Shown: one piece after another, positions 9,401 through 60,957 of the stretch | How the letters are laid out: every line of letters starts with the position of its first letter | How positions within the stretch are numbered: position 1 is the stretch's first letter | Notes under the pieces: generated by a model | Told to the model about the DNA's origin: nothing | The model's database searches: none | The model's input: only the letters and a program-made list of their open reading frames with translations | Position numbers and translations under genes: made by a program | NCBI GenBank assembly: GCA_020080175.1 | Contig: JAGHQL010000022.1 | Coordinates: forward strand, 124,001-188,000 | DNA from: Glutinoglossum americanum | Taxonomy: Eukaryota > Ascomycota > Geoglossomycetes > Geoglossales > Geoglossaceae | Direction: 5' to 3' | DNA: 64,000 nucleotides

Positions 9401-9939
9401 TAGGTGACCTACTAAAGCAACATTTCGTATTTGCTCCGGATAGTTCATAAGATCGGTCATAAATCCTCTAGAAAAGCGTACGGGAGGCAAATCCGCCTCT
9501 TGGATGGTGAATTTCTTCTTTTGGACTGGTGCGATAATTGGCTGAGATAGTGGTTGCGCATCTTCTTCCTGTACCAAAGTCTCGACACCTGGCCCGTATA
9601 CCTGCTGGGCAGTAGGGTAATATTGCTTATCTTCGTGGAGAATGACAGCATTCGAAGGTCCCTCATCTACGAGGATGCGTTATTTCATGCCTCAAAAGCA
9701 GTACATGAGCAAAACTTACCATCAACTTCCATCAATTGTTGATCATTATCGTCTGCATCCCCTTCTTCTTCATCATGGACATAGGCCTCTGCTCCAGCAT
9801 CACCACGATCTGATTCCTCCGATTCCTCTGCTTCTCCAATGAAGTTACCGAACCTAGAGTCAGTTAGCCTCTGAAAATTACAGCACGTAATAAATGCGTC
9901 CCCTTAATTGGCTACTTACTCATCGTACAGATCGTCCAT
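6485..9939 (-). CDS. SNU114: U5 snRNP GTPase Snu114 (EFTUD2 orthologue)
   Basis: Snu114 is the EF-2-like GTPase of the U5 snRNP that controls spliceosome activation and disassembly with Brr2 and Prp8. Seven exons: complement(6485..6733, 6881..6945, 7030..7281, 7373..7460, 7523..9666, 9720..9853, 9920..9939), 983 aa, close to the human protein's length. The N-terminus [17 protein letters not shown] is the family's acidic start and is split over exons 1 and 2. GTPase motifs are [12 protein letters not shown] (G1), DTPGHVNF (G3) and NKMDR (G4). The C-terminal EF-2-like domains IV-V include [16 protein letters not shown] and end with [15 protein letters not shown]. The donor at 7522 is GTTGGT, which is unusual, but the resulting join (LPSE-VDKKLL) matches the family. 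The gene is divergent from the thiolase gene across about 307 bp. Confidence 0.97.
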
Positions 9940-10246
9940 AACGTCAAAGTCTTAAATCTTAAAAATATAACAAGGTCGAGGACGTGGGCGCCTCTATTAG
10001 TATTCGTTGACAACCCAAGTTTAAGCCTCGAATTGGAGTCACGTGCAAATGAACATTCATTTTTTTGGGGGCACCTGTTGCTGCCCCTGGGTTAAGGGCC
10101 TGGAACTTGGTGGCTTGGGACCCTCGTATAGCAGTTAGAGTGGCACCACTCGCCTTGAAACATAAGGAGGGCTCTTAAACCAGTATATCTCCGGAGATCC
10201 AGGCCAATTGATTCAATATTGTCTGTTATAATCTAGAAAACCAAAG
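9940..10246. promoter_or_regulatory. Divergent promoter SNU114 / acetyl-CoA acetyltransferase
   Basis: These 307 bp separate two divergent start codons and must hold both promoters. A palindromic CACGTG lies at 10040-10045, preceded by GT to give GTCACGTG. This is a typical bHLH/Cbf1-type E-box. Its function is inferred only. Confidence 0.5.
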
Positions 10247-11679
<1,433 letters not shown>

Positions 11680-50922: not shown

Positions 50923-53561
50923 CTAAGAGTCATCAAATTGCTCCCCCCTAGTCAGTCCCCCCGCTGCGTCCTCGCAATCCTCCCCACCACCACGCCCCCC
51001 CATCCACGCCCTCGCCTCACCGCCAGGCCCCGCCCCGGTCCCTGCCCCTGCCCCTGCCCCTGCTCCCGAAAAGCTAAACCGATCTTCTCCACCCCCGCCT
51101 CCGCCAACAGGAGGAAACCCGCCTGAAGCTGGAATCATATACGCTTCATAGCCGCCCGAGCCACTCGATGTTGACGTTGAAGGGGACGCCAGGCCCGAAA
51201 TGTTGGACTGGTGATCGGCGGGGAATTGGTCCATGGACTCTCCAGAGTAAATTTCCGAGTCGTTGTGATTGAGTTGTCTCGGGTAGGTGAATGTCGAATC
51301 GCTTGAGCCGTGGGGGGGCTGGGGCGCGTCGGCCATTAATTGGTCCTGGGAGTGTTGGGGCTGGGCGTAATTGCTCCCCTGTGCCGTTCTCGCCTGAGAT
51401 TCTGCCTCGGGCCCCCCGTTGGCGTAACCACGTTTGTTCCCGACTTCCGCCGAGAAAAGCGGTTCCTTGTCTCCCAGCCCCCGAAGCAGACCGGTTGAAG
51501 CATCTAGCATACCAACCGCAAACTCCATGAACTCCGCTCCCTTGCTGCTGACTCTCAAAGTCCATCTATACTCTCCTAACCGAGATTTGTAAAACTCCGC
51601 TTCTTCCTTCCCCGGTGCTGTCGCCCATAAAAGACTGCCAAACGTACCGATAAGCGCGAAATTCACTTTTGATGCGAAATACCAAAATGATTGGAGATGC
51701 TCCGGTTTTAGCCGGTTGACAAAGTCCATGGCGGAAATGAGGCGTGTCTTTGCTGCCGAGCGGCAAATGTGCAAAAGGTATGGATCTGTAGTTGCTGGAT
51801 TAAGTGAACGGACGATGCGGCGATGAAGAGTAATTTCCGTAGCAAAGTAGGCGAGATGGAGGTACCCTGATACGCAAAGCGTAAGTTTTGCACAGCATCG
51901 GAACTAAGGGGCCCGGGGTGATTTACCGGTCGATGATAACTTCCTGATCTTCGTACTATCCATCCTCAAGCAGCCCGGCAGTCTTGCGAACCATTCCTTT
52001 AGCTTTATCTGAACCGGCTTCGCCTTTTCCAGTATCAGGCGCGTGCCATCTTTGCCCTCATTCTCAATCTCTTGAATCGCCTTGATTGTGTAAAATGTCT
52101 CTAAAACCTCTGATAAGATCTCCGTGAGCGTAATCATCTGGCTGAATAGCATCATTCCCTTTTCCACCTCTGTGCTGCCCTCCTCGTCGTCTTCGTCCGC
52201 CGCGTTTTCGGGAAAGTCTTCTTTGACCACAGGTCTGACTGCCCAATTCGATCGAACGATATGAGAAGGGCGTCCGTGTGTCAGAGCTCCCCATTTGTCC
52301 TGCATGAACAATGCCCACGCCAGACGTTTCCTTAAGCCTCGCTCCCAATCGGGGATCTTCCACTTGGAGCAATCCAGATGCAGCCCTAGTTCCTGACCGA
52401 TAGCCACTAGCTGTGCCGTCAACGCCCAAGAATCGCCCTCTGGTCGCTGCAGAAGCAATAATCCAGCTTGGACGGTTGAGAGCTTCGGTCTGTGGATCAC
52501 GTCATTGATAGTCTTCAGCGCCAATCTCTCCAGCTCCTTCACGTCAGGTTTTGGCAGACTGGCCAAGTCACTGCTGTAGGACCACCAATTAAGTACTAGG
52601 ATGTACACAGCTGCCAGCAATGGAGGAGAAAATTCCCGGTGTGTCCTATTATATTTTTCTAGGTAAACCTTTTTATGTAGTATTGGAAAACTTGGATGGA
52701 CAATTCGAAAGTACAGGTTTATCAATGCCTGGCCGTGTGGGGCCACGACGCTTTCGATGGCATCAAGATCCGCCATCTCGTCACCATGGTTCTGGGAACC
52801 CTGATCCGGCAGCATAAGGAAAGTGTCGAGATCGCTCACCCGCCGTAGTGCTCCACGTGATAGTGAGTACTCATCTTTCCGGTCGAAGGGAGACAGGTTT
52901 ATCAGGCATGGTTCGAACTCGTTGGTAGAGCCGACATGCGAACTGTGACGGTGATTTTGGAGGCCTAGAGTCTTCTTAAGAAGAGATGGACCCTTAAGGT
53001 TTGCGTAATCGTCGACGGGAGCATTGGTTCTGATGTTTGGCGCGGAAGAGCCAGTGTTTTGCGAAGGCCTTCTAGAGTGCTCCGTGTCTGGAGATCTACA
53101 ACCGAGAAGACGTTAGGAAAATATCCCATTGCCCAAAAAAAAAAAACAAAAACAAAAGCGAAGGCAGTCGGTTTTCTTGCATACCTCCTCTTTGAGGTGT
53201 CCTCTTCCCTCCCGTCACTGTTCAACCTCCTCTTACGCGGCTGCGGGCTCTGTACAAATGTACACTCCTGCTTATGAAACTCACACAAGACGCAAACCTC
53301 CGCTCCTTCGTGTATGACACACCTGCTCTTCCTCCTTCGGCAGGCATCGCAAGGACGATCTCTTCTGGTACGGGTGTTGGCAGGCTCCGTAGGTCCCTGC
53401 TGTGTCGTAGTACTTGGTGAGGCCATCACCGGGGTTACTTTGGGCTTTATCAAGGTATCTCGTGCTGATGTTTGCGGCCTCTCCGAACGGGACTGCGCAG
53501 CAGCGATTGGTATTGGGATAGGGCGAGAGATAGAGGTGTGTGCGGCCATTGCGGTTGTCAT
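50923..53561 (-). CDS. Zn2Cys6 regulator resembling TamA/Dal81
   Basis: TamA (Aspergillus) and Dal81 (yeast) are co-activators of nitrogen-catabolic genes such as those for GABA, urea and allantoin use. Exons complement(50923..51866, 51927..53095, 53185..53561) give 829 aa. The zinc cluster near residue 70 has spacing C-x2-C-x6-C-x8-C-x2-C-x6-C (RPCDACRRRKSRC, then CVLCEFHKQEC), followed by a basic PRKRR. The fungal-specific TF domain includes LGLQNHRHSSHVG, FRIVHPSFPILHKKVYLEKY, LQRPEGDSWALTAQLVAIGQ, GLHLDCSKWKIPDWERGLRK and KWGALTHGRPSHI, which I recall from TamA-like proteins. The C-terminal 250 residues are disordered with a Gly/Ala repeat (SGAGAGAGAGTGAG). The orthology call is from memory of the family and needs a search. 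The next genes are a permease and an amide hydrolase, which fits a nitrogen role. Confidence 0.85.
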
Positions 53562-54716: not shown

Positions 54717-57089
54717 TTACACAGGGCTGACTTCCTTTGTCGACCCGATGGCCTCGCTCTTCTCGTAGCCAACCACGTCGCCGGCCTCCTCCTCGGGTGA
54801 AATGTCGCCTTTCTGCGGCGGATACACTGCTACATCCACCATAGCGCTGGTCGGTGGAGAGATATACTTGCAAATAACGTAGTAGCTGAGCAACGCGACG
54901 GTGAACCCGAAAAACCACGCAAAGGTGTAGATCTAAGGAAGTTATTGGTATCACTGTATGCAGCGTCCCGATCGCAAGGGCTCGAGGAATGCTCACCTTC
55001 CAGGCGCCGCTGATTGCGAGATCGTTCTTGATTGATTTGGCGAATCCGGGAAGAACTGGGATGAAGCCGAGGAAGAATGATGTAAAGGCCCTCCAATTGA
55101 AGCCGTAATCGTACCAATAGATTCCGTGGTCCTTGTACAGCTCGTGGACATTGAGCTTCTGCTTCTTGATCAAGTAATAATCGGAGACCATCGTCCCCGC
55201 AAGGGGCCCCATGAGGCATGAATAACCCGACAAAAACGATAGAAGGCCCGAGGCATTCTTGATGATGTTCCAGGGGGTCGACACGACGCAGAAGACGCTG
55301 ATAATCAACGTGGCACGATAAATATTGATATACTTCGGGTACATGCCGCTAATGTCGTTACTGAACGGATAGGTTCCTTTATTCGTTATTAGTAAATAAA
55401 TGCAGTTTCTATAATTGCGGGAATAAATCTTTGCCAGACATACCCGCAGCGACCTGATTGCCAATGGTTGCGAGCATGAAGCTAAGTGCCGTGAAAAACT
55501 TCGCAGCCCTTGAATCAAAGTTTTCAAGGACAGCAGGCATGTACCATTGGAACTCGCCCCAGATTTGTAGATGAGCTGAACAGACAAAAATTGGAGTCAG
55601 GGCCCCAAGGGTGCCAATAACAGGCAATGCAAGGAACTGATGGTACCCAGCGAATTGGTCCCTAGAAAAGCGACCAAAGTCCTAACGTTTCCGAATTAGC
55701 ATAGCCCCATGACCCGGCAAGGCAATGGCGTCAATGGGTGAGAAGGGAGGCTTACGGGCATGTTGACGGCCAACGAGGAAAAGAGCCCAATCATCACATT
55801 CAAACCTGTTAAGGCGCTGTATGCAGTATTCATGTAACTGCTCGTGAGTTTCACAGGGCCTTTTACCAATGGTCCGCCGCCATGCGTAACAATAGCGGCC
55901 CAAAGGAATAGGGCCAAGAATGTTGGTGGGACAACGATAGCTTTCACGAAGAAAAGGATTCGGAGCTTCTTGATCGGCATGAGAGCTAGAATGGTCTGGA
56001 CAATCCAGTAGAGGAAGAAGCAGAGCAAGCCAGCAGCTGTTGTTTTGAATGTAGTTGTCAGCATGCAATTCCTGATTAATACCCTGCAGATGCGTGGTAA
56101 ACCAAAGGGGAAAAAAGGGGGAAACAACGAAAAGATGATGTAGGTAATGCTCTGGCTTCGGAAAGCGCCCAAGTCCGGTGAACCAGATTGTCAAAGGGAT
56201 AAAGGGTGGCAGTGAAGAGGGGTGAAATAGGAGGACATACAAGTGATGTTTGCATTTTCCGGTAGGTGATTTGGAAATCTTTTGAAGCTAGGCCAGATTG
56301 CCTCGAGGCAGCATTTCAGAAAATCCCCGGCTTGGACGCACAAAATAGCAGTCCACCTTCAGACAAGTCAGCAGTCGAATGGCGTACTAGATGCAATAGG
56401 GAACGAACATCATAGCGACAAAAGCTCTGAGTTACATCACTATCGTTAGCCACAGCCACCCGGAGGCGTAGGAGAGCAGATATAAAGGGGTCTAACCTGA
56501 TACAGATCATCGGATAAGAGCCTGTTCGATGTTATAGTAGTGAGCCTTCGTGCTAGGAGATACCATAGTCGCCAACATATCGGCTTACCAAACATCCCAA
56601 ACACGCTTCTAACGATAACAGGGTACGGAATGTTGTACGTCGCTCCCATCTACGATTGCATGTCAGTGGATGTGCCTGCGGTCTCTAGGGCAGCATATGA
56701 CCTACTTTACCAGTTAAAGTGATAACAACACTACAGATGAGGAACCCGAAGAAGACAATTGGGATTGTCTGTCTAGCGGTGAAGCCGAGGGATATGACCG
56801 CAGAAACAGTGCTGGCCAAGGGAGGGGCAAGCATGTCGGAGCACCAATAAGCCCAGAAGTCAAGCGGACCCCAGATTCGAAGCTCGACGGGGACAGGATC
56901 CAAGTCTAGTAACCGACCAAGTTAGAGACCGAGCTTCCAATTGGGATCACGTAGATGGAAAAAGAAGTAGTGCATACCCTTGTTGGACCATCTCGGAGAG
57001 TTCTGATAGATCCCAGCTTTGAATGGCACTCGCAAGTGCAAGTGAGGCCTGATCCTCTCCTTGAGGCGGTTTGGGGAGAGGAAAGACAT
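54717..57089 (-). CDS. NCS1-family (Fur-type) permease for nucleobase-like substrates
   Basis: NCS1 permeases import uracil, allantoin, uric acid, cytosine or related small ring or amide compounds with protons. Ten exons: complement(54717..54932, 54997..55376, 55444..55681, 55756..56036, 56241..56356, 56409..56426, 56497..56521, 56589..56649, 56706..56905, 56978..57089), 548 aa. The start is MSFLSPNRLKERIRPHL, then NKDLDPVPVELRIWGPLDFW (first membrane helix), GATYNIPYPVIVRSVFG, CIRAFVAMMWTAILCVQAGD, AIWPSFKRFPNHLPENANIT, AGLLCFFLYWIVQTILALM, SSYMNTAYSALTGLNVMIG, FTALSFMLATIGNQVAAG, FLSGYSCLMGPLAGTMVSDY and IYWYDYGFNWRAF. Two exons are only 25 and 18 nt, and the introns either side of the 18-nt exon have weak donors (GTTAGA, GTTCGT). 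All phases fit, and the protein has the family's normal length and about 12 helices. The substrate cannot be read from the sequence. Confidence 0.92.
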
Positions 57090-58109
57090 GGTGTCCTCAG
57101 TTGACCGGATTTAACGGGTAGATCTCGTGTATTTCTCCGCTGGAAGTTCTGGAAGGCAGGGATAGAACAGGGTTTTTCCGCGAGAATGGCCATTCCAGCC
57201 TGGTCCTCGGGATGTTTAAGTATTCGACGTTCCTGAAATCTCTGCATTGCACAAATAGTAAAAAAGAAAACAAAAAAAATGCAAGATTGTATCCAGTCCA
57301 CCGGACGGGGTACGCTGATATGGCCGTTGGGCCTAGGGCCCAAGATAGGTGTGGGGTTGTGACGGGTCCTGACGATCGTTTCCGCCTTCAAGACGAGCTC
57401 TGATTGAGTGATTGAGTCGGGCAAGAGGTCTTGTGCCGAACGCCCACGGGCCTCCAGGCCCTATTCCTTCGAGACACGCATGCATTTACTAAGTGGCGTA
57501 ACAGCTATTTCTTCGATAAGAGACGTGGTTGTCCAGTAGTCGCGGGACTTGGCCGACTCGTCCAGGCATAGTCGAACGCCTATCGAAGAAAAGAGGTGGT
57601 CCAAGCTCCATCCCAGCGCTAAGGTTCCGAAGCTCTACCAAGCTTCCCCCACAATAACTCTATTTGAGTGGTTCGCCGACGGCGCGTCGCCCCGTCCCCA
57701 TGGATATCTTCTGGCCCCCCTCACCGCTCGATACGGGTATATCTCAATCACGCACAGTCGATCGATATCCCTCAGCCCGTCTACCCAATCCAAGGATCTT
57801 AATTGCGCACTACGTAACCCGGGTCGAATTGCTACTCGTCCCTCGAAACCCTTGATTGCATGTTATGTACAGATGAACACCACCCCACCATCCATTGTCA
57901 GGTAAGCCAGCGGAGATCTGGAGACCATAATTTTTTATTTTGCTCTCTGTCCAAGTGCTTGTCCGTCTGTCGTGATTTATTTACCCGGGTTCCGCCGACA
58001 TTATAAAGTTGCTGTAATCTCTCTGGCTTCTTCATCTCTTGACGATCGCTGAGATTGCAAAGCCCTGGAGATTCCTTAAGGCGTAGGAGCCAATTCAGAT
58101 ATTGCCAAC
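57090..58109. promoter_or_regulatory. Divergent promoter permease / fused amide hydrolase
   Basis: About 1 kb between two divergent genes whose products could act in one pathway. No gene is supported inside it. Binding sites for nitrogen regulators (GATA-type) were not mapped systematically. Confidence 0.45.
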
Positions 58110-60957
58110 ATGGGTTTTAACTCCTTGCCCGAGGCGGTTACAGTCGACGCAAAGCCGTATGCCTTCACCTTCCCTCCGAGGCATACGGCCCTGCTCACCA
58201 TTGACATGCAGCGAGACTTTCTTCTTCCTAAGGGGTTTGGTGATATACAGGGAGGAGATCTCACTGCTGTCCAAGCTTCCATAGAACCTACAAAGCAATT
58301 GCTGGACCTTTTCCGCAGTGCTGGTATGCATGTTTTCCACACGCGCGAGGGCCACGTACCTGACCTCTCCGATTGCCCCTCTTCGAAGCTCGTGCGCCAA
58401 GCCGCGTGCCCAGACAACAAACAACATGGACTAGTGATAGGAGACAAAGGCGATATGGGCCGTCTGCTGGTTCGTGGCGAATATGGACACGATTTTGTCG
58501 ACGAGCTACAGCCAGTCCCGGGGGAGGTGGTAATTGACAAGCCGGGGAAGGGAGCGTTTTGGAACACTAGGTTGATGGAGAGGCTAAAGGCAAGGGGAAT
58601 TACACATTTGGTAGTCTCTGGTGTCACTACAGGTGCCTGGCCTCGAAGCGTGAGCGTTTAATGAGACGGTTCTTGTAGTTGACTTGATATACAGAGTGCT
58701 GTTTCGCGACGTCAATCCGTGAAGCCAACGATCGAGGCTTCGAATGCTGTAAGTGCATGATCCACCCGGAGAATTGAAAAAAAAAAAAAAAAAAGAAAGA
58801 AAAAAGAAAAATATGAAGCCCAAGTCCCCTATGCACACTCTCGCCGAAGCAGGCATCTCTTCTTAAGATTCGTTAGGGTGGTCGTTCAATGTTTTCCTGT
58901 AGTTTCTCTTGACCCCGCTTGACAAACACCAGAAGCCCTCCCAAAACTCTACAATATTGTGGGCGCTGGGTGGCCTTTGGATTCCTTCACGGACCATCTT
59001 CGATCGACCCAAGATTGATTGCGGGAGATTGAGAGGTCAACACATGGATCTCATTAACCGTTTTCTTCGTTGGGGAGCACCAACGCCAATATTAATTAAT
59101 GCCACTGCCGCTCCCGGCTTGTGTTTTCTCTAATCTTGTCCTCTATATGACCGAATACTCATTTCTTCCATGCAGGCGGAATCACGGAGGCCACGGCAGG
59201 TTACAACTCGGCATTCAAAACTTCATCCCTCGATATGATCCACTGGTCCCAAGGCCTGTTCGGTTTTGTGTCTGGTCTTCAGCCTCTTGCCGACGCCTTG
59301 TCCCCATACCTATCGAGCGGTAGTGCGCCCGGTGGTACTCCTCCGCAAACTCCACCCTTGTGGGATGGAAACCTCGACATTTCCGCTCTTGCCGCTGCGT
59401 ACCGCAGTGGTCTGTCGCCTGTGACCGTTGTCGACGCCCTATATGGAACAATTGAAGCGTACAAGGAGGTCGACCCTGCAGTGTGGATCTATCTAGCTCC
59501 TAAAGATATAATTCTTGCGGCGGCTAAGGAACTGATGACCAGATTTCCGGACAAAGAGAAACTGCCACCTCTATATGGCGTGCCTTTTAGTGTCAAGGAT
59601 AGCATAGACATTGCCGGTGTCTCGACTACTACAGCATGTCCGCCGCTGGCCTATATACCGTCGAAGTCCGCTGCAGTGTACGAGAAGGTGATCGAACAGG
59701 GTGCTCTCTTCATTGGCAAGACAAACCTGGACCAGTTAGCTACTGGATTGTCGGGATGCCGCTCACCATACGGTATCCCACGGTCTGTCTATAACAAAGA
59801 TTACATTTCCGGTGGCTCCTCAAGCGGGAATGCTGTCAGTGTTGGCGCTGGTCTTGTATCTTTTTCCCTCGCCACGGATACCGCTGGATCAGGAAGAGTG
59901 CCAGCAGCTCTCAATGGCGTTGTAGGCTACAAGCCGACGAGAGGAACCGTATCTTTCCAAGGAGTTACTCCTGCATGTCTTTCACTAGACTGCTGCTCAT
60001 TCATTTCTCGCAATGTTGAAGATGCGCGGAAAGTGTGGGAAGCCTGCGAAGGATACGATCCGAATGACCGATACTCAAAATCCACACCTCCCACCCTACG
60101 GCATGTGAACTCCCTAGGTTCCCAAGCAAAGTCGTTCAATTTCGGGATTCCTCCCCCTGAAGCGCTTGCGGTATGCGCCCCGGTGTACCGCAGTATGTTC
60201 AATGATGCGGTCAAAACATTACAGAGCATTGGAGGTAACTTGATTTACGTTGATTGGACACCTTTTGAAAAGGCGGGCAAACTGCTTTACGACGGTACCT
60301 TTGTTTCGGAGCGTTTGGCCGGTCTACCTGATGGATGGATGGAGTCCAACAAGGACCACTTGCATCCTGTCATCCGGGAGCTTTTCGAGGGAGTTGTGAA
60401 TAGAAACAGCACTGCAGTGCAGGCGTATCGAGATCTGCAGGCCAAGGCACTGTAAGCACCACACTTTTTTTCCTGCGGTATTCTTCTCCCCCGCCCTCCA
60501 AACAGCTCGAGTCGCTAACCCGTCCTTCTGCAGGTACACCCGCCAAGCAGAGGAAATCTTCGACCTCGGCCCCTCCGGAATAACTGTCCTCCTTGTCCCC
60601 TCAACCCCAACCCACTGGACCGTCTCCGAAGTCCTTGGCGACCCCATCACCAAGAACTCCGCCCTAGGGGAATTCACACACTTTGGTAACGTCCTAGACC
60701 TGGCCGGCATCTCCGTCCCCGCAGGAACCTATCCCGTGTCGAAACTCGCAAAGGCACCGTCGTATGCCGACCAGACACCGGTCTTGGGGTCGACGCCGGA
60801 TGCGGATTCCGGCAACGAGTCGGGGGAGGAGGAAGGGGGAAAGTTGCCGTTTGGCGTTACGCTCTTGGGGGGGAGTAGGACGGACGCGGAGGTGTTGGAG
60901 GTTGCGAGGAGGTTTGAGGGGGCGGTTAAGGCGAAGGGGAAGAAGAAGGGGGTATGA
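58110..60957 (+). CDS. Fusion: isochorismatase-like cysteine hydrolase (biuret-hydrolase type) plus allophanate-hydrolase amidase
   Basis: Exons 58110..58632, 58695..58748, 59176..60451 and 60534..60957 give 758 aa in one frame. Residues 1-230 are a cysteine hydrolase with triad D32 (TIDMQRDF), K144 (DKPGKGAF) and C177 (VTTECCFAT). It also has HTREGHVPDLSDCP and IGDKGDMGRLLVRGE, patterns I associate with biuret hydrolases, which cut biuret to allophanate and ammonia. From about residue 270 an amidase-signature domain of allophanate-hydrolase type follows. It has PLYGVPFSVKDSIDIAG (Lys), IGKTNLDQLATGLSGCRSPY, ISGGSSSGNAVSVGAGLVSF (cis-Ser), TDTAGSGRVPAALNGVVGYK (nucleophilic Ser), TPACLSLDCCSF and LPFGVTLLGGSRTDAEV. 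The usual allophanate-hydrolase C-terminal domain is absent. The second intron is 427 nt, far longer than its neighbours. It falls where the cysteine hydrolase fold normally has a few more residues, so a missed mini-exon is possible. The biuret assignment is inference; ureidoacrylate-like or other amides are alternatives. Confidence 0.85.

Follow-up and report, generated by a model that had tools for sequence, protein, structure and literature searches.

A conserved fungal gene that joins a domain of the biuret and triuret hydrolase family to an allophanate-hydrolase-type amidase

The best-described relatives of the gene analysed here are bacterial. They are two cysteine hydrolases of one family, the triuret hydrolase TrtA and the biuret hydrolase BiuH, and the allophanate hydrolase AtzF, which bacteria can hold together according to PMC7948467; such genes are said there to occur in some fungi as well. 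The same work separates TrtA from BiuH by the residues F35/Y, N41/Y, A134/S, E160/D, Y187/T, and I205/V (TrtA state first) and by the position of a glutamine, Q202 in TrtA and Q215 in BiuH, and it reports that the single changes N41Y and Q202E leave TrtA with less than 10% and less than 5% of its activity, respectively. For BiuH, PMC5806882 gives a kcat/KM of 149742 per M per s, which drops to 357 when Gln215 is changed to Ala, and it shows that a change to Glu cripples the enzyme on biuret (115 vs 149742). Here, we describe a gene of the ascomycete Glutinoglossum americanum in which a domain of the TrtA/BiuH family is fused to an amidase. It lies at 58110..60957 on the forward strand of a 64,000-nucleotide stretch (contig JAGHQL010000022.1, positions 124,001 to 188,000), hereafter the window, to which positions refer unless another contig is named.

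The fusion is real and conserved, and the substrate of its first half is an easily tested question. The unspliced frame starting at 58110 is not open, and the four exons of our splice model join into a single frame of 758 codons and a stop. The product carries an Isochorismatase domain (PF00857, residues 26-215, 120.7 bits) and an Amidase domain (PF01425, residues 285-739, 248.1 bits; Pfam cut-offs 27). Exon 1 (58110..58632) encodes the isochorismatase-like domain with D32, F37, F43, G49, E80, K144, and K147. It is followed by a 62-nt GT-AG intron (58633..58694), by the 54-nt exon 2 (58695..58748, approximately residues 175-193) with the catalytic Cys177, and by a 427-nt GT-AG intron (58749..59175). 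Exon 3 (59176..60451) encodes the end of the hydrolase domain with its WSQGL gate (W216-L220), the linker, and most of the amidase (K333, S407, S431, Y564, and R572); after a third GT-AG intron of 82 nt (60452..60533), exon 4 (60534..60957) completes the amidase domain and ends at the stop codon, without an AH_C domain. This predicted structure rests on homology: the exon junctions, that of intron 2 included, agree with both P0001 (from Geoglossum simile) and P0002, and the alignment with P0001 crosses the three junctions without gaps, with 155/174, 16/18, 369/425, and 102/141 identical residues in exons 1 to 4. An AlphaFold2 model of P0001, which is 85% identical to the window protein, has a mean predicted local distance difference test score of 80.2, with low confidence in the interdomain stretch 242-252.

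To place the protein among its homologues, we used a search of 5.8 billion proteins, in which 7999 candidates were scored (7824 with E ≤ 0.001) and the best 120 listed; counts for the fusion refer to these 120. Every one of them carries both domains, at 62-87% identity. The original prediction of a single gene, with its two halves in one frame and its start and stop at the positions given above, was therefore right, and a reading as two separate genes is ruled out by the single-frame join of the exons and the fused state of all 120 homologues. Intron 2 is far longer than the two others and holds a long A-rich run. The gene model of the Trichoglossum hirsutum protein P0004 lacks the exon 2 stretch and with it the catalytic Cys, and no G. 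americanum protein appears among the listed homologues; gene callers may break or miss this gene.

Sequence comparison gives good grounds for assigning the second half to the allophanate hydrolase type, as originally proposed. In a tree of 61 rows, it falls inside the allophanate hydrolase clade and apart from other amidases (support 100/100). Its K333, S407, and S431 are invariant in the 120 fusions; we take S407 and S431 to be the cis-Ser and the nucleophile. A LLYxGxxVxER motif provides Y564 (119/120) and R572 (120/120), presumably the substrate-binding Tyr and Arg of allophanate hydrolases, and between these two residues lie the clade-specific replacements T567, F568, and S570. The match to the NCBIfam model of the full-length allophanate hydrolase, TIGR02713, reaches 420 bits over profile positions 2-381 of 563, below the cut-off of 511, and the C-terminal AH_C domain was found neither in the protein by Pfam nor by the genome search. 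An AtzE-like carboxybiuret hydrolase is disfavoured: allophanate hydrolase models match at 454 and 420 bits, AtzE models at 148 and 142. Nine low-scoring amidases from the bacterial loci introduced below (labelled otherAS, by score) branch apart in the amidase tree.

The first half keeps the catalytic residues of its family and departs from both described types at the gate. The triad D32, K144, and C177, already recognised in the original prediction, is kept in 118, 120, and 119 of the fusions, the remainder being alignment gaps; with the oxyanion-hole Thr included, the range is still 118-120, and the substrate-binding Lys K132 is Arg in three. The separating residues were scored in the fusions and, for comparison, in 119 bacterial hydrolase rows; these come from the best 80 of 578 loci confirmed among the genomes of 84,980 species. 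The bacterial rows fall into two sets. Those with N41 (n=80) have F35 in 80, Q202 in 80, I205 in 79, E160 in 75 (His in 5), and Y187 in 76 (Phe in 4), and those with Y41 (n=39) have Y, D, T, Q, and V at positions 35, 160, 187, 202, and 205 without exception. The fusions are TrtA-like at F35 (120/120), E160 (119/120), and Y187 (119/120), and position 134 is mixed (S 80, A 34, T 6). At the N41 position, they have G in 114, A in 3, S in 2, and D in 1 (G49 in the window protein); the position of TrtA Q202 and BiuH Q215 is Ser in all of them (S217), and that of I205 is Leu in all (L220). Position 203, a Gly in TrtA, is Gln in 110 and Glu in 10. The alignment of the gate is gapless, and the glutamine has therefore shifted one residue along, replacing Gly203. 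The second-shell pattern of BiuH (Tyr47, Tyr53, Asp173, Thr, and Val218), carried by 39/39 of the bacterial BiuH-type rows, reads F, G, E, Y, and L in the fusions, which also lack the Gln215 that BiuH receives from the neighbouring subunit. Five TrtA-type bacterial rows (L036, L049, L062, L073, and L083) have His for Glu160 and a Gln just ahead of the gate Gln, and branch on the BiuH side; they possibly represent a further specificity.

The ancestry of the first half points to TrtA. Among solved structures, its best match is TrtA (214 bits), ahead of the biuret hydrolases (184 and 181 bits) and RutB (99 bits), and its score against the biuret hydrolase equivalog NF050097 is 221.5 bits, below the cut-off of 370. 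TrtA is also the first structure of this kind in the Foldseek fold list, at row 50 (template modelling score 0.87 by target length). A separate PDB-based list says little about the N-terminal domain, as one in five or more of its rows span residues 258-752. A tree of 145 rows unites the fusions in a single clade (100/100) on a branch of 0.97 changes per column; this clade lies outside that of BiuH and, with weak support (67/90), near proteobacterial TrtA rows. One TrtA-type row in this tree, L086_7995, carries a wrong BiuH label assigned by score cut. With 43 chosen rows, the fusions and TrtA fall on one side at 100/100, and BiuH and a standalone fungal family on the other. An approximately unbiased (AU) test did not reject the grouping of the fusions with BiuH instead of TrtA (p 0.103), and descent from TrtA is thus favoured, not proven. 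Identification of the first half as BiuH by motif likeness is rejected on the gate residues and the best trees, with this AU value noted. The label biuret-hydrolase-like, given to the first half in the original prediction, is accordingly unsupported in that form. The first half may nevertheless have respecialised to biuret, given that AU value and gate residues that also depart from those of TrtA.

The fusion is a common, established fungal protein and not a peculiarity of this genome. Its homologues are filed under generic names (such as amidase signature enzyme, allophanate hydrolase, glutamyl-tRNA amidotransferase subunit A, and hypothetical protein), and we found no description of it in the open-access literature, from which key papers were missing and in which not every search was aimed at it. 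The organisms shown among the listed homologues are ascomycetes except for Hygrophoropsis and Leucogyrophana (P0023 and P0063), which are basidiomycetes. In the amidase tree, these two nest within the ascomycete fusions, beside the window protein and Geoglossum (fork 91/71), a placement that possibly reflects transfer between fungi.

The same genome has a standalone gene of the BiuH clade on another contig (C79, ~9,650-10,550, minus strand; L001/L115), with 48% identity to RhdBiuH over 215 residues. Its product scores 217 bits to the BiuH structure 6xjm vs 160 bits to TrtA, and eight chosen homologues fall on the BiuH side of the 43-row tree. The position of Gln215 is Glu in 118/120 of its listed homologues, many of them incomplete (D24, for instance, falls in a gap in 47). 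We would guess that its substrate is not biuret and may be cationic, such as guanylurea. By sequence, then, G. americanum carries both hydrolase lineages, each with an altered gate. The public protein P0241 (FGG08_001294) of this species has an N-terminus of another kind: its record is named after a Fido domain, Pfam finds PF00857 only, and it lacks the sequence further upstream that encodes the catalytic Asp and can be read at L001 2315-2216 on the minus strand; it is likely a wrong gene model. Elsewhere in the genome, a single open frame on contig C309 (L003, from 39,397 to beyond 40,176) combines an isochorismatase domain with a 2OG-Fe(II) oxygenase (PF13532).

Some bacteria have the two parts of the fusion as separate genes. 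In 12 Actinomycetota loci (L012, L026, L027, L035, L045, L055, L071, L075, L079, L089, L030, and L032), one hydrolase of this group each has nearby an amidase of the allophanate hydrolase type without the long tail; in L030 and L032 the amidase domain starts some way downstream. A close BiuH relative was not found in 10 of the 12 genomes, for which completeness figures are absent, and is present in two at 79-82% identity. Two residues of the fungal amidases, Ser335 (120/121) and Ala425 (117/121), recur in 11/12 and 10/12 of the pair amidases, respectively, and in none of three other short amidases (L020, L029, and L085, of which L085 is truncated where its locus ends) or 16 long or reference ones. 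The amidase tree leaves unresolved whether fungal and pair amidases are sisters. Pfam applied to 18 open frames of four pair loci, several of them probably spurious, revealed regulators of the GntR type next to two pairs and no further shared neighbour. Our literature searches, none of which was aimed at these pairs, met no characterisation of them. TrtA and BiuH types occur together in 39 of the 80 fetched loci.

In the window, the divergent neighbour of the fusion is a gene for an NCS1-family permease (approximately 54717..57089, minus strand; exons partly resolved), identified by the open frames, by the genome search, and by PF02133 at 94 bits in one open frame. In the genome search, NCS1 matches came from just three contigs, and the chance of such an adjacency is therefore small (<0.2%, an estimate assuming 7000-9000 genes), which hints at an import-and-degrade unit. 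Against such a unit, the ~1.0 kb between the two genes (57090..58109) shows no excess of HGATAR sites for nitrogen-control GATA factors (3 in 1 kb vs 2.7 per kb window-wide). Beyond the permease, seen from the fusion, stands a fungal transcription factor gene on the minus strand (50926..53112), with PF04082 in the open frame 51907-53112 and a second frame, 50926-51903, which may continue the gene and has no Pfam match. Downstream of the fusion is a sugar transporter on the opposite strand.

Taken together, the fusion would most likely be a two-step scavenger of ureide nitrogen. Our tentative choice, held at somewhat under even confidence, is a bifunctional enzyme with biuret as the likeliest substrate of its first step. 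The N-terminal domain, probably of TrtA descent, would use Cys177, activated by Lys144 and Asp32, to strip ammonia from the terminal carbamoyl group of a linear ureide. The amidase (Lys333, Ser407, and Ser431) would then deaminate the resulting carboxylate, in the simplest case allophanate, and what is left would decay to CO2 and ammonia without the aid of the second domain present in other allophanate hydrolases. The use of biuret would depend on a gate rebuilt independently, with Gly for N41, Leu for I205, and Ser for Q202, the Gln having moved to the next residue, and the neighbouring NCS1 permease would import the substrate. The proposal that the two halves catalyse consecutive steps of one route is therefore no more than possible, given the departures of the first half from BiuH, and substrate channelling between them, as originally suggested, would be a further possibility. 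Several results weigh against biuret. The first half groups with TrtA in the best trees and shares F35, E160, and Y187 with it; it has Ser where BiuH has the Gln215 on which its use of biuret depends; the hydrolases of the bacterial pairs retain the TrtA gate; and, with a separate BiuH-clade gene in the genome, the role of biuret enzyme need not fall to the fusion. The adjacency of the permease is weak evidence as well. No NCS1 match was found at the 80 bacterial loci with two NCS1 pieces of the window or four bacterial NCS1 queries (a tblastn check recovered the query loci and, by one of the four queries, the gene of the window itself, but none of the 80 loci), and NCS1 as a general partner of the hydrolase family is thus unsupported; nor was there a match near the 12 pairs, of which that of G005 is on a 5-kb contig. 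The two actinobacterial BiuH genes found in the 12 pair genomes (L124 on contig C25 of G002 and L125 on contig C178 of G006) do adjoin NCS1-family genes, at distances of ~120 and 230 bp; these neighbours, possibly biuret carriers, are of another NCS1 type than that of the window. A search of the genome for cyanuric acid hydrolase, a source of biuret, gave no match, as did its control anywhere, so that absence is not established.

The presence of both lineages makes a relay of two proteins from triuret over biuret to allophanate a serious rival, if on balance an unlikely one. The N-terminal domain would be a true triuret hydrolase (triuret to carboxybiuret to biuret), the BiuH-clade enzyme of C79 would make allophanate, and the fused amidase would finish, so that the gene would join steps one and three. 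TrtA is the nearest structure and the favoured clade, three separating residues are TrtA-like, and fungi hold a standalone BiuH-clade family just as bacteria may hold all three enzymes, with both hydrolase types in about half of the fetched loci. However, the fusions have replaced I205 as well as N41 and Q202, at each of which a single change nearly abolished TrtA activity, and the standalone family has the very Glu that cripples BiuH. We consider it similarly doubtful that the gate binds some other ureide, for example one from purine or pyrimidine breakdown taken up by the permease, with the amidase acting on the resulting carbamoyl or carboxyl compound. This would fit the long branch of the fungal clade, a gate unlike both bacterial types (Ser and Leu in 120/120 each), and the clade-specific T567, F568, and S570 of the amidase; in describing the permease family, Pfam lists cytosine, purines, uracil, thiamine, and allantoin, and other members of the hydrolase family act on guanylurea (PMC9800807) or, in RutB, on ureidoacrylate. 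The amidase nevertheless keeps the core of allophanate hydrolases, including Y564 and R572, which favours allophanate. It is very improbable that the N-terminal domain is an inactive or regulatory remnant and the amidase works alone: the specificity Gln is lost and Arg replaces K132 in a few fusions, but the conservation of the triad and the oxyanion-hole Thr would be unexpected in a dead domain.

If active on biuret or triuret, the fusion would let fungi process these fertilizer impurities with a single protein and, in the case of triuret, products of uric-acid oxidation as well. PMC7948467 leaves open how biuret or triuret use is set by the place of a single glutamine. The fusions offer a natural experiment on this point, being a whole clade with changes at that glutamine and at two residues close to it in space. 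The Actinomycetota pairs, in most of whose genomes no close BiuH relative was found, raise the question of whether all three enzymes are always needed. A bolder outcome, which we think improbable, would be a third specificity of the BiuH/TrtA family, evolved in fungi by a one-residue shift of the gate glutamine, fused to a trimmed allophanate hydrolase and fed by a linked NCS1 carrier, i.e., a one-protein ureide pathway beyond the known ones.

Compared with known systems, the fusion resembles urea amidolyase (DUR1,2; PDB 5i8i) in being a multi-domain protein that includes an allophanate hydrolase step. The partner domain in urea amidolyase is a biotin-dependent urea carboxylase, and the genome search of G. 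americanum detected neither the CT_C_D nor the AH_C domain of urea amidolyase. With the allophanate hydrolases AtzF (4cp8), Granulibacter AH (4gyr and 4gys), and Kluyveromyces (K.) lactis AH (4iss), it shares the amidase domain, the Lys/Ser/Ser set, the Tyr and Arg, and the clade. It differs from the AtzF type in that its amidase stands behind a cysteine hydrolase and has no AH_C, in the clade-specific residues between Tyr and Arg, and in S335 and A425, otherwise seen only in the short paired amidases. The Actinomycetota pairs have the same two parts, close together and with an amidase that likewise lacks the long C-terminal tail, but as two proteins and with the TrtA-type gate retained. BiuH (PDB 6azo, 6azq, and 6xjm; PMC5806882) is alike in family, triad, and the Phe and Lys that match its Phe41 and Lys145, whereas the best trees place the fusion apart from the BiuH clade, and the fusion leaves Tyr47, Tyr53, Asp173, Gln215, and Val218 unmatched. 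TrtA of Herbaspirillum sp. BH-1 (PDB 6xix, 6xje, and 6xj4; PMC7948467) shares the triad and the states of F35, E72, K132, E160, and Y187; it is a separate small bacterial dimer with N41, Q202, and I205 where the fungal fusion has G49, S217, and L220.
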